64,000 bases of DNA from an uncultured Pelagibacteraceae bacterium (lineage in GTDB: Bacteria > Pseudomonadota > Alphaproteobacteria > Pelagibacterales > Pelagibacteraceae). This document shows positions 7,674 to 19,906 of the stretch, one piece after another. Numbering within the stretch: position 1 is the stretch's first letter; every line of letters starts with the position of its first letter. The translations under genes were made by a program, and so were the position numbers. The stretch spans positions 1 through 64,000 of the forward strand of contig CACPHV010000005.1 in the NCBI GenBank assembly GCA_902633985.1, read 5' to 3'. The notes beneath the pieces were generated by a model. The model did not search any database and had not been told where the DNA came from. It saw nothing but the letters and a program-made list of their open reading frames with translations.

Positions 7674-8285
7674 TTATTTTTTCTTTCTTTTATAATTCTT
7701 AACTTCTAATTGTGGCGATCGTGTTAATGCTAAAGATTTTGTTCTTACATTCTTTGTAATCACTGAACCAGCTCCAATAATACTATCTTTGTTTACGGTA
7801 ATTGGAGCAACCAATGAAGAATTTGAGCCAATAAACACTTTGTCTTTGATCTTAGTTTTGTTTTTATTTACTCCATCATAATTACAAGTAATAGTACCCG
7901 CTCCTATATTTACTGATTTTCCAATTATGGTATCTCCTACATAAGATAAATGATTTACTTTAGATTTATTTCCTAAAGTACTTTTTTTAATTTCGACAAA
8001 ATTTCCTACTTTAGATCCTGATTTTAAAATTGTGTTAGGTCTTATTCTGGCATAAGGTCCAATTTCAACTTTACTTTCAATTTTACAAGACTCTAGATGT
8101 GAAAAAGATTTTATAATTACATTATTTCCAATTTTAACCTTAGAACCAATAACAACATAAGGTTCTATAGTTACCTTCTTTCCAATCTTAGTATCTTTTG
8201 AAAAAAAAATAGTTTCAGGCCCTATCATCTTAACTCCTGATTTTATAAATTTTTCTCTTAGTTTTTTTTGATTTAAAACTTCCAT
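7674..8285 (-). CDS. Stand-alone GlmU C-terminal acetyltransferase domain (glucosamine-1-phosphate N-acetyltransferase)
   Basis: The 203 residues correspond only to the left-handed beta-helix acetyltransferase half of GlmU. Its first residues (MEVLNQKKLREKF) line up with the linker just before the beta-helix of the 456-residue E. coli enzyme, and the rest follows it to the end, including ARIRPN, VGNFVEIKK, the catalytic histidine in NHLSYVGD (about residue 112) and NIGAGTITCNYDG. The uridyltransferase half is absent; ATG at 8285 is followed upstream by only 69 bases before the divergent gph. It should acetylate glucosamine 1-phosphate, with the UDP-transfer step supplied by another protein. 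Position next to glmS and gph is the usual alphaproteobacterial glmU locus. Confidence 0.85.
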   Translation of the reverse strand: MEVLNQKKLREKFIKSGVKMIGPETIFFSKDTKIGKKVTIEPYVVIGSKVKIGNNVIIKSFSHLESCKIESKVEIGPYARIRPNTILKSGSKVGNFVEIKKSTLGNKSKVNHLSYVGDTIIGKSVNIGAGTITCNYDGVNKNKTKIKDKVFIGSNSSLVAPITVNKDSIIGAGSVITKNVRTKSLALTRSPQLEVKNYKRKKK

Positions 8286-16347: not shown

Positions 16348-17802
16348 ATGAATCAAAACATAAAAATAGACCCCTATGGATTTAGAGAATATGACGCTCG
16401 TTGGTTGTACGACAAAGACATAAATTCAGCTGGAATTGAGAATCTTGGTAAAGGACTAGGAACACAAATAAAAATTCATACTAAAAAAGAAAATCCAAGA
16501 ATCATCGTTGGACATGATTACCGATCTTATAGCGAAGAAATAAAAGCTGCTCTTAAAAAAGGATTAATATTTACCGGATGTAATATTGAAGATGTGGGTC
16601 TATCCTTATCTCCAATGGTTTATTTTGCACAATTTAAATTAGGCGCAGATGCAGTTGCTATGGTTACAGCAAGTCATAATGAAAATGGTTGGACTGGTGT
16701 AAAAATGGGTATCAAAAAAGGATTAACTCACGCACCCGAAGAAATGAAAGAATTAAAAGAAATTACATTAAGTCAAAATTTTTCTGAAGGACAAGGAAAA
16801 GAAAAACAAATAACTAATTTTGATAAAATCTATAAAAATGACTTAATTAATAAAAATAAAATAGAAAAAAAAATTAAAGCTGTAGTTGCTTGCGGGAATG
16901 GGACTGCAGGGGTTTTTGCTCCCGATATATTAAGAGGTATTGGTTGTGAGGTAATTGAGTTAGATTGTAAATTAGATTGGGATTTTCCAAAATATAATCC
17001 AAACCCAGAAGATTTAGAAATGCTTCACGAAATTGCCAAAGTGGTCAAGGAAAATAATGCAGATATAGGTTTTGGATTCGACGGTGATGGAGATAGAGTT
17101 GGCGTTATAGATAATGAAGGAAATGAAATATTTTCAGATAAAATAGGTCTTTTAATAGCTAGAAATTTATCAAACAAACATAATAATTCTAAATTTATAG
17201 TTGATGTTAAGTCAACTGGATTATACTCAAAAGATCAAATTTTAATTAAAAATAACTGTAAAACTATTTATTGGAAAACAGGACATTCTCATATTAAACG
17301 AAAAGTTAATACTGAAAAAGCACTAGCAGGATTTGAAAAGAGTGGCCATTTCTTTTTTAATCAACCATTGGGATATGGTTATGATGATGGAATTAATTCA
17401 GCTATTCACGTATGTCACTTATTAGACAATCAAAATAAAAAGATGAGCGAAATTATAAGTGAATTACCTAAAACATTTCAAACACCAACAATGGCACCTT
17501 TTTGCAAAGATGAAGAAAAATATTTAGTTGTTGAGGAATTAGTTAAGCAAATTGAAAATTTAAAAAAAAATAACACCAAAGTAGATGGTCAAACAATAAG
17601 TGATATTTTAACTGTTAATGGAGTTAGGTTTTCATTTGAAGATGGTTCTTGGGGGCTAATAAGAGCTTCTTCAAATAAGCCATCTCTGGTAATTGTTACC
17701 GAAAGCCCAACTTCAGATGAAAGAAAGAAAAAAATCTTTGATTTTATTGACGATTTGTTACAAAAAACAGGTAAGGTCGGTGAATATGATCAGAAAATTT
17801 AA
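16348..17802 (+). CDS. Phosphomannomutase/phosphoglucomutase
   Basis: Interconverts hexose 1- and 6-phosphates for surface polysaccharide precursors. The 484-residue alpha-D-phosphohexomutase has all four active-site elements: phosphoserine loop TASHNENGWTG near residue 111, metal loop GFDGDGDRVG near 240, sugar loop FEKSGHFFF near 331 and the phosphate loop RASSNKPSLVIVTES near 452. It looks like the bacterial PMM/PGM (AlgC) type; preference for mannose or glucose cannot be read. Its last four bases overlap the convergent coiled-coil gene. Confidence 0.92.
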   Translation: MNQNIKIDPYGFREYDARWLYDKDINSAGIENLGKGLGTQIKIHTKKENPRIIVGHDYRSYSEEIKAALKKGLIFTGCNIEDVGLSLSPMVYFAQFKLGADAVAMVTASHNENGWTGVKMGIKKGLTHAPEEMKELKEITLSQNFSEGQGKEKQITNFDKIYKNDLINKNKIEKKIKAVVACGNGTAGVFAPDILRGIGCEVIELDCKLDWDFPKYNPNPEDLEMLHEIAKVVKENNADIGFGFDGDGDRVGVIDNEGNEIFSDKIGLLIARNLSNKHNNSKFIVDVKSTGLYSKDQILIKNNCKTIYWKTGHSHIKRKVNTEKALAGFEKSGHFFFNQPLGYGYDDGINSAIHVCHLLDNQNKKMSEIISELPKTFQTPTMAPFCKDEEKYLVVEELVKQIENLKKNNTKVDGQTISDILTVNGVRFSFEDGSWGLIRASSNKPSLVIVTESPTSDERKKKIFDFIDDLLQKTGKVGEYDQKI

Positions 17803-18902
17803 TTCTTTAAATTATCTTCATCGTTTTTATTTTCTAAATTTTCGTTATCAGTTTTAGATTCTAAATTATCGCCATCCTGATTATTTTCTTGTTCAGGAGT
17901 TTCGTCGCTATAAAACTTTCTAACCAATTCCTCCTCTTTAAGTCGTTGTTCTTCATCAAATTTTTTCTCCCATTCTTTCATTCGCCTATTTTCCTCATCC
18001 TCTCTCTCTTTTTGAGCAATTTCAGCTAATCTAATTCTCTCATTTTCTTCATCAATTCTTTTTTGTCTTTCCTCCTCTATTTTCAATTCTCTTTCTCTTT
18101 GACGTCTTTCATTTTCTTTATTTATTCTCTCACGTTCAGCTTCTTTAAGTTCTTTTTCTTTATTTCTTAATTCATCTTCTTTCGCTCTTTGCTCAGCCTC
18201 TTCTTTTAAAATTTGTCTTTGAATTTCTTGCTGTCTTTCAGTTTCTAGATCTCTTAATCTTTCTTCCATTTCTTTAAGTTTTTCTTGCTCATATTTCAGC
18301 TTCCTAGCTGCCTCTCTTAATCTTTGCTCTTCCTCAAGTCTATTTTTCCTTTCAATTTCTTTTAATCTTATTTTTTCTTGTCTTTCTTTTTCTTTTTCAT
18401 CTCTTCTCTTTTGAGCTTCAATTTCCTTATTTTTTAATTCTTCTTCTTTAATTTTAAATTTTTCTTCTCTAATTCTTTGTCTCTCTAACATTTTTAGCCT
18501 TAAATCTTCTTCTTTAAGCTTTCTGGCTTCCTCTCTAAGTTTTCTAGTTTCTTCATCTTTAATTTTTTTCTGTTCTATTTTAATTCTTTGAGCTTCTACT
18601 TTTTGTCTTTTTTCTTCATTCTTTTTTTCTTGTTTTTCATTTTCAATTATTAATTTTTTTTGAAAAAGAAGTTTCTTTCTTTCTTCTTTCAGTTCATCTT
18701 GCTTAGCTTTTTTTGCTAATTTTTTCTCTAAAATTGATTCTCTTTTCTTTTCTTTTTCTAATTGTTTTTGTAATGCTAAATCTTTTTTAACTTTGTTTTT
18801 TTTAAAATCATTTAAAAGCGAGGAAAATTTATTTTTTATTTTATCTATTGGATTAAATAAATTTTTTTTAATATTTTTATTAATGTCTTTTATTGAAACC
18901 AT
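17799..18902 (-). CDS. Long charged coiled-coil protein of unknown function
   Basis: About 367 residues, of which roughly residues 45-330 are almost only Lys, Glu, Arg, Leu, Gln and Asp in short repeats such as RLREEERLKEE, with no proline or glycine. This predicts a continuous helix, either a coiled coil or a single stable alpha-helix. The last 40 residues are acidic and Asn-rich (DNLE/NENLEN repeats). There is no signal peptide, membrane segment or recognisable enzymatic domain. ATG at 18902 is preferred over the in-frame TTG at 18917. Similarity to the TolA or IF2 helical regions would be compositional only. Function unknown. Confidence 0.75.
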   Translation of the reverse strand: MVSIKDINKNIKKNLFNPIDKIKNKFSSLLNDFKKNKVKKDLALQKQLEKEKKRESILEKKLAKKAKQDELKEERKKLLFQKKLIIENEKQEKKNEEKRQKVEAQRIKIEQKKIKDEETRKLREEARKLKEEDLRLKMLERQRIREEKFKIKEEELKNKEIEAQKRRDEKEKERQEKIRLKEIERKNRLEEEQRLREAARKLKYEQEKLKEMEERLRDLETERQQEIQRQILKEEAEQRAKEDELRNKEKELKEAERERINKENERRQRERELKIEEERQKRIDEENERIRLAEIAQKEREDEENRRMKEWEKKFDEEQRLKEEELVRKFYSDETPEQENNQDGDNLESKTDNENLENKNDEDNLKN

Positions 18903-19030
18903 TTTTAAAAGTATCAATTAGAATAATAACACTAAATATCATGTGTGGCTAAATTGAGTTTTTATTATAAGACTAAATACAACTTAAGATTGTCTGATTT
19001 TAAATTAGTTAATAACAGGCATTTTCAACT

Positions 19031-19116
19031 AATAAGTGTTCTTAAATATTTAAAGAATCACTTAATCTAAATTTGTGAGGTGATGGAGGGAGACTGAAGT
19101 CACCTCTTTTTTTTTT
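19031..19116 (+). ncRNA. Candidate small RNA with two hairpins and a terminator
   Basis: In the 218-base gap between two minus-strand genes there is a plus-strand signature with no plus-strand gene to serve. A hairpin pairs 19033-19043 with 19053-19064 (one bulged base). It is followed by GAGGTGA/TCACCTC (19077-19083 and 19100-19106) and then ten T residues, a classical intrinsic terminator. No open frame of useful size precedes it on this strand. The 5' end is unknown and may lie as far upstream as about 18930. I did not recognise 6S, SRP, tmRNA or a known riboswitch. Confidence 0.6.
19077..19116 (+). terminator. Intrinsic terminator (plus strand)
   Basis: A perfect seven-base-pair G+C-rich stem (GAGGTGA with TCACCTC), a 16-base loop and T10 at 19107-19116. 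The T tract is on the plus strand only, so it ends a plus-strand transcript, not the TauE-family gene that ends at 19121 on the other strand. Confidence 0.8.
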
Positions 19117-19120
19117 GTTG

Positions 19121-19906
19121 TTATAATTTTAAGTATTCGTAAAAAAATTTAATTGAAACTACTAAAAGAAAAATTCCAAAAAACTTACTAATTTTATTCT
19201 TGTCGATACTGTGAACTGTTTTAGCACCTATCCGAGCCATGAAAGTTGTAATTGGTATAAATATTAAAAAGGCTGGTATATTTATAAAACCAATGCTTAA
19301 AGGAAGACTAGAATTTAAATAATTTCCTGAAATTAAAAAACCTATTGCTCCAAATAGAGCAATTAAAAAACCTATTGCTGCTGCACTTCCTATTGCTTTA
19401 TTTATTGAATAACCAAAAAACTTAAGAATAGGAACGTTCATTACAGCTCCTCCAATACCCATAGGAGCAGATATAAACCCAACAACAAAACCAAGAATTA
19501 CTTTTAAATGTAATTTCATTTTAACAATTATGTTTTGCTCCTTTTCTTTTATTAAAAGTAAGTAAATTCCTAAAAATAGAATCATTATAGAAAAAAATAA
19601 AACTAAAGATTTGGTTTTTAGAGAAGCTGCAAAAACAGTTCCAACAATCACTCCTATTACAACAAAAAGACCGTAATTCTTTACAATATCAAAATCAACT
19701 GCTTTAAATTTATGATGTGTTAAAACTGAAACAGTAGATGTTGGTATTATAATTGCAAAGGAAGTTCCTACTGCAAGGTGCATAACATATTGAGGATCAA
19801 TTTCTAAAGAACCAAAAATAAAATATAAAAAAGGCACAGTTATTAACCCTCCTCCAATGCCAAATAATCCAGCCACAAAACCTACTGGAATAGCTGTTAA
19901 AGCCAT
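19121..19906 (-). CDS. TauE/SafE-family membrane permease
   Basis: A 261-residue, about eight-helix membrane protein with the two family repeats: FGIGGGLITVPFL near residue 16 and PMGIGGAVMNVPIL near 147. Such proteins are linked to export of sulfite, sulfoacetate or other organic anions. The start is uncertain: the frame stays open upstream to the dusA stop and encodes extra hydrophobic residues that would complete the first helix, but no ATG, GTG or TTG is available there; a rare ATT start is possible. It is the last gene of the rpoZ-dusA run. Substrate not known. Confidence 0.82.
   Translation of the reverse strand: MALTAIPVGFVAGLFGIGGGLITVPFLYFIFGSLEIDPQYVMHLAVGTSFAIIIPTSTVSVLTHHKFKAVDFDIVKNYGLFVVIGVIVGTVFAASLKTKSLVLFFSIMILFLGIYLLLIKEKEQNIIVKMKLHLKVILGFVVGFISAPMGIGGAVMNVPILKFFGYSINKAIGSAAAIGFLIALFGAIGFLISGNYLNSSLPLSIGFINIPAFLIFIPITTFMARIGAKTVHSIDKNKISKFFGIFLLVVSIKFFYEYLKL

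Follow-up and report, generated by a model that had tools for sequence, protein, structure and literature searches.

In the window, the whole stretch of 64,000 nt that was analysed and a contig of a 1.22-Mb Pelagibacter (SAR11) genome, a gap of about 200 nt between two minus-strand genes holds a hairpin and a T10 terminator on the plus strand. SAR11 are the most numerous bacteria of the surface ocean, and they have few transcription factors. The genes and elements of the locus are as follows.

16348-17802, plus strand: phosphoglucomutase/phosphomannomutase (Pfam, neighbour survey), in many relatives the gene next to the sRNA on its upstream side
17799-18917, minus strand: coiled-coil-like gene without a Pfam match, between phosphomutase and sRNA in some relatives
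19009-19015, plus strand: candidate -10 element TTAATAA, predicted and not universal
19021-19116, plus strand: putative sRNA gene as conserved (blastn block, covariance model match at 19021-19117, positional conservation)
19024-19040, plus strand: box 1, TTCAACTAATAAGTGTT, consensus TTCAAYTAWTAMGNGTT, conserved in sequence in hosts and absent from phage contexts
19033-19064, plus strand: first hairpin, UAAGUGUUCUU/AAGAA-U-CACUUA, a predicted fold without covariation support
19054-19064, plus strand: box 2, AGAATCACTTA, consensus AGAATCRNNTA, conserved in sequence in hosts
19077-19106, plus strand: 3' hairpin with an 8-bp stem, GAGGTGAT (19077-19084) pairing with GTCACCTC (19099-19106), marked by compensatory changes, an invariant loop and a 50-bit model match
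19085-19098, plus strand: the 14-nt loop of this hairpin, GGAGGGAGACTGAA, consensus NNAGGGAGACURAA, almost invariant
19107-19116, plus strand: T10 tract, tail of the intrinsic terminator
19121-19906, minus strand: TauE/SafE family permease (Pfam, neighbour survey), convergent with the sRNA

This arrangement agrees with a preliminary description of the window, which had set the plus-strand element apart from the phosphomutase: that gene ends at 17802, the opposing gene at 17799-18917 lies between, and the minus-strand gene at 19121-19906 lies beyond. Inspection of the sequence also bore out the hairpin at 19077-19106 and the T10 at 19107-19116. The transcribed region had been drawn from 18930, and this start has to be moved, since the conserved part begins near 19021. 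The coiled-coil-like gene is rich in E/K/R repeats, and it is inserted in some relatives and missing in others. Across relatives, the upstream neighbour is the phosphomutase or the coiled-coil gene, often on the strand opposite to the sRNA, and the downstream neighbour is TauE, a HIT protein, a malonyl-CoA-decarboxylase-like protein or others. In three genomes that have no sRNA, the phosphomutase and TauE genes are directly convergent across a very short gap with no remnant, that is, the absence is clean.

Conservation and parts of the host gene

In a blastn search of the gap against 100 relatives, more than 25 had the conserved block 19024-19115 in the same position. A covariance model built from 28 copies (R1) matched 122 of 201 genomes of the genus and another 28 in a second genus; over the order, matches were obtained in 160 of 297 sampled genomes, all of them in two genera of one family. 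Among the matches listed in a pattern scan, the named genomes with the hairpin were only Pelagibacteraceae and other Pelagibacterales, and 289 further genomes, from the class but outside the genus, gave no convincing match, one marginal match (G713) being taken as chance. Nearly always there is one copy per genome, and 13 of 17 hosts have the hairpin, one each. A repeat element was rejected on this single copy number. One genome (G378) has two tandem sRNA copies about 480 nt apart (L091, 4300-4900), which differ in their 5' parts and have the same loop. Presence of the sRNA differs between close relatives, and several Pelagibacter genomes of 96-99% completeness do not have it, so the sRNA is dispensable.

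P. ubique HTCC1062 also has a copy, in the gap 1142870-1143031 (32.1% GC) between a SulP-type permease and a HIT protein; the predicted RNA is placed at 1142941-1143037 on the plus strand. The assignment to this strain was made because the gap coordinates, neighbours and GC content equal the values for the SAR11_1190/SAR11_1191 gap in Table 1 of Meyer et al. (2009; PMC2704228), where 29 BLAST hits and no RNA are entered. That screen covered only gaps with more than 200 BLAST hits. Another gap of HTCC1062, between recA and a protease gene (L450, 626974-627168), has 1168 BLAST hits and stands unassigned in that paper. This gap is GC-rich; recA is followed there by a strong terminator, the minus strand is structured, and a further RNA may lie in it. 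In one set of genomes, which comprises L031, L033, L096 and many other relatives, a short membrane-protein gene begins with its ATG directly at the end of the T tract of the sRNA (MADKKIRSFAKTFSWR...). Since the tract abuts the ATG, the hairpin would there lie in the leader of that gene, which is missing in the window.

The 172 aligned host copies share one layout: TTAATAA, an A, box 1, a variable stretch, box 2, a variable linker and the hairpin. Box 2 begins 30 nt from the start of box 1 in nearly all copies, and the spacing from box 2 to the hairpin differs by single bases between copies, so the conserved block is not a reading frame. We predict a 5' end at about 19021, where an A is found in 85% of the aligned host copies, and a 3' end at the T tract. 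Counted from GAATC, the TTAATAA region stands out as a peak of conservation between -46 and -40, and it is a fair candidate for a -10 element. In three of the upstream contexts 55-60% of copies have a TNAATAA-like match, in a fourth 0 of 15 do, and for this reason the 5' end is given only as a prediction. A promoter scan returned no sigma-70-like site at TTAATAA, and no clear -35 was seen in the alignment. Boxes 1 and 2 themselves were rejected as sigma-70 promoter hexamers on inspection of the 172-copy alignment, their spacings being unfit.

The two-hairpin fold of 19020-19120 (-22.4 kcal/mol) is only modestly unusual on energy alone, since it has a z of -2.05 against shuffles and 8 of 200 shuffles were as good. 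The hairpin at 19033-19064, which the preliminary description had set beside the terminator, was recovered as a predicted fold but was rejected as a conserved structure: relatives keep only 69% of the pair cells, with no covariation beyond that of the second hairpin's stem. What is conserved around 19033-19064 thus appears to be sequence, namely the two boxes, and not structure.

The 3' hairpin in hosts and phages

The 3' hairpin behaves differently. Covariance analysis in related genomes had been suggested earlier as a check on the gene, and here it showed compensatory changes in 7 of the 8 stem pairs. In the set of 54 distinct host and viral hairpins, 94.9% of stem cells are paired, and 99 two-sided cells were counted against 32.7 in shuffles, related sequences being included in these counts; sliding the stem partner abolishes the signal. 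The stem changes from GGUGA/UCACC to GGUGG/CCACC, GGUAG/CUACC, GGCAG/CUGCC and GGCGG/CCGCC. The loop core GGGAGACU is identical in 54 of 54 distinct hairpins, partly by construction, as the searches required most of the loop; a loop-tolerant model (R2) detected no strong loop variant in whole genomes. The loop can fold into a GAGA tetraloop on two pairs (GG/CU) above a purine-rich 3x3 internal loop. In the window, a hairpin-only model scored 50 bits (E 1.3e-10), with no comparable match elsewhere in the window's genome. Because there is one copy per host genome, the hairpin does not serve host mRNAs in general as a signal.

We then observed the same module in viruses. Among viral contigs, a strict pattern detected 15 and a relaxed one 74, 72 of them with a real stem, and a GC-rich version added 96; the viral loci with the hairpin come to 173 in total. 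Within 50,697 phage records, full-length matches (at least 14 records) belonged to Pelagibacter phages and one uncultured marine phage. The Pelagibacter phages were HTVC019P, 021P, 022P, 031P, 048P, 105P, 121P, 131P, 142P, 201P and 304P, together with EXVC012P and EXVC014P. Outside Pelagibacter phages, searches with alternative stems hit nothing but short chance matches, and plasmids gave only partial chance matches, none convincing. All 19 phage or viral records that were searched whole have exactly one hairpin. Host boxes 1 and 2 are absent from the phage hairpin contexts.

The strand that carries the loop coincides with the coding strand in 97 of 100 distinct viral contexts, and the hairpin lies between cistrons, at a median of 22 nt past one gene and 25 nt ahead of the next. 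There is one position per phage lineage: between lysozyme or amidase and primase in HTVC021P and HTVC022P, between phrog_2402, whose function is unknown, and a different primase, or, in HTVC031P and HTVC142P, between capsid and tail tubular A. In HTVC022P the hairpin is at 8215-8244. Public RNA-seq exists for HTCC1062, both uninfected and infected with HTVC022P or HTVC027P (PMC12753301). No identical hairpin sequence is shared by host and virus, so recent exchange between them is not indicated. In several temperate pelagiphages (L294 to L297; L289, L277), GCCCAGAATCGAACTGGGAT occurs within about 20 nt after the hairpin; it resembles a tRNA 3' half on the opposite strand and is probably where the phage attaches to the host chromosome. 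This tRNA-like sequence is often immediately preceded by a strong second hairpin, CGCTCCTAGTTAGAAATAGCTAGGGGCG. GGGAGA as a start site of a T7-type RNA polymerase was considered and dropped, as the sequence ahead of the phage hairpins is not conserved.

Host and viral copies differ in what follows the stem. T5 is present in the tail of 121 of 179 distinct host copies, about two thirds, vs 2 of 76 viral ones. Where host copies are without the T tract (e.g. L020, L169, CTCGTCTCCTAAG), the tail is often pyrimidine-rich, whereas viral tails overall are not. In one clade, the T-less tail GTCTCC is the exact complement of GGAGAC in the loop, and a pseudoknot could form. Since the same hairpin almost never has a T tract in phages, it is more than a terminator. 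The loop persists in hairpins that do not terminate, so termination is not the reason for its conservation. The hairpin lies on the sense strand and its stem covaries, and its function is therefore at the RNA level. As to the earlier claim of a stand-alone sRNA, the conserved unit, its varying neighbours and its occurrence in two genera speak for it; the emphasis has to shift, because the terminator hairpin itself is the main feature, recurring as it does in Pelagibacter phages and not as a terminator.

A putative recognition hairpin and its alternatives

The simplest reading of these results is a trans-acting partner that recognises the loop. By profile search, Hfq (PF17209) and ProQ/FinO (PF04352) were absent in the window's genome and in an HTCC1062-like genome, with positive controls for Hfq, and CsrA (PF02599) was absent in four genomes. 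The best explanation is an sRNA independent of all three proteins. The partner would then be either a new factor or a known ribonuclease that has taken on a new function, because Hfq, ProQ and CsrA were not found. With one hairpin per host genome, a general factor of the ribonuclease or chaperone kind would have a single such substrate in the host.

We favour, with modest confidence, an sRNA gene whose 3' hairpin is a recognition module for a trans-acting factor common to host and phage. The gene would be transcribed from the plus strand into an RNA of about 95 nt that ends at its own intrinsic terminator. One module of this RNA would be a mostly single-stranded 5' part with the two conserved boxes, found in hosts only; the other would be the 3' hairpin, with a loop NNAGGGAGACURAA that hardly changes and a stem that covaries. 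On the loop would sit the factor, for which an RNA-binding protein or a ribonuclease of the host is the most likely candidate. Pelagiphage mRNAs would carry the hairpin once, between cistrons, and may thereby recruit this factor, so that the phage mRNA is processed, stabilised or regulated.

Base pairing could also account for an invariant loop. The loop or the 5' boxes would then be a seed for host mRNAs, and the phage copies would be mimics or sponges. A purine-rich invariant loop and conserved unpaired boxes do resemble seeds, and the loop is retained in the phage copies; but the 8-nt complement AGTCTCCC has only 1-9 further occurrences per genome, below the reversed control, and its sites in eight genomes are not in homologous genes and lie mostly antisense within coding regions. 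An 8-nt loop seed with a conserved target was rejected in these eight genomes, which have no orthologous site. As Hfq and ProQ were also not found by profile search, we regard base pairing as unlikely. The relation between host and phage may instead be reversed, with the host sRNA as a decoy that mimics the phage-mRNA hairpin and titrates a phage-encoded factor in infection. The hairpin's occurrence in many Pelagibacter phages at one position per lineage, and the difference in host-copy presence between close relatives, would suit a decoy. Against it, the loop is common to distinct phage lineages that differ in their genes, and this speaks for a host partner; the host copies have conserved boxes of their own that a decoy would not need, and no hairpin sequence is identical in host and virus; a decoy is thus quite improbable.

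The plainest account would be an ordinary 3' UTR or terminator of a neighbour, e.g. the phosphomutase; the phage copies would mark transcript ends in the manner of T7 Tphi. In many relatives the hairpin comes after the stop codon of the phosphomutase and on the strand of that gene, T10 is present in the window, and in HTVC031P and HTVC142P the hairpin between capsid and tail tubular A is at what we take to be the place of Tphi. A plain phosphomutase terminator is nevertheless rejected, because the neighbours vary, the upstream genes often lying on the opposite strand, and because viral copies are without T tracts. The tract is missing in one third of host copies and in nearly all viral copies, a terminator does not need an invariant 8-nt loop, and the upstream boxes are likewise conserved in a unit with one copy per host genome. 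Taken together, these findings make an ordinary terminator very unlikely.

Collectively, the presence of the hairpin in host and virus points to an RNA-recognition system used by both. A wider proposal, put forward tentatively and with somewhat more doubt than belief, is that SAR11 has a regulatory system of its own built on the invariant-loop hairpin, and that pelagiphages of several lineages have each put the module once into their mRNAs to use or compete for the host factor. If this is true, a host sRNA pathway would be hijacked or contested by phages in the ocean's most abundant bacteria. The hairpin common to SAR11 and its phages is a concrete handle, and it can be used as bait for the missing RNA-binding factor.

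Comparison with known systems

No family of Rfam 15 reached its gathering threshold in the window or at the HTCC1062-like and phage loci, and relaxed matches were weak and implausible, in agreement with the preliminary description, which had recognised no known class. The best weak cmscan match was AniS (RF02274), at 24.8 bits against a gathering threshold of 50, with an E of 0.026 in a small search; AniS is of similar size and has a 3' hairpin and a T tail, but there is no identity in loop sequence. sRNAs associated with Hfq or ProQ resemble this RNA in size, in a single-stranded conserved 5' part and in a terminator hairpin with a long T tract. Here, in contrast, no Hfq or ProQ gene was found, and the terminator loop is invariant, which is unusual. 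A CsrA sponge of the CsrB/RsmZ type was rejected, since CsrA was not found and there is one hairpin instead of several GGA hairpins.

In T7, Tphi lies between genes 10 and 11, and the RNase III site R3.8 precedes gene 4. We take the pelagiphage hairpins to be at corresponding places, the one between capsid and tail tubular A at that of Tphi and the one between lysozyme and primase at that of R3.8. These positions suggest a control of transcript ends, yet the host copy of the module ends an sRNA. The pelagiphages differ from T7 in having one invariant-loop hairpin at both places, without a T tract and shared with the host.

The nearest precedents in the same organisms are the rhtB, pntA, babIM and SAR11_0636 elements, structured RNA candidates of 'Candidatus Pelagibacter ubique' that came out of a comparison of this type (Meyer et al., 2009; PMC2704228). 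The rhtB element is likewise a single hairpin with a conserved loop, and half of its copies have a poly-U tail. These elements lie at other places in the genome, our hairpin model gives no match at their loci, and the sections of that paper used here report no phage occurrence. In the open literature, to which the survey was confined, we found neither a name for this RNA nor a pelagiphage non-coding RNA.

In summary, the locus has two properties of a bacterial sRNA gene, a non-coding unit conserved independently of its neighbours and an intrinsic terminator. A stand-alone sRNA gene of about 95 nt outside the described classes is well supported by this comparative evidence. The sRNA appears to form a new family of Pelagibacteraceae, and as a kind it would be a variant of the small regulatory RNAs, distinguished by a module with a covarying stem and the loop NNAGGGAGACURAA that is found in Pelagibacter and in its phages.
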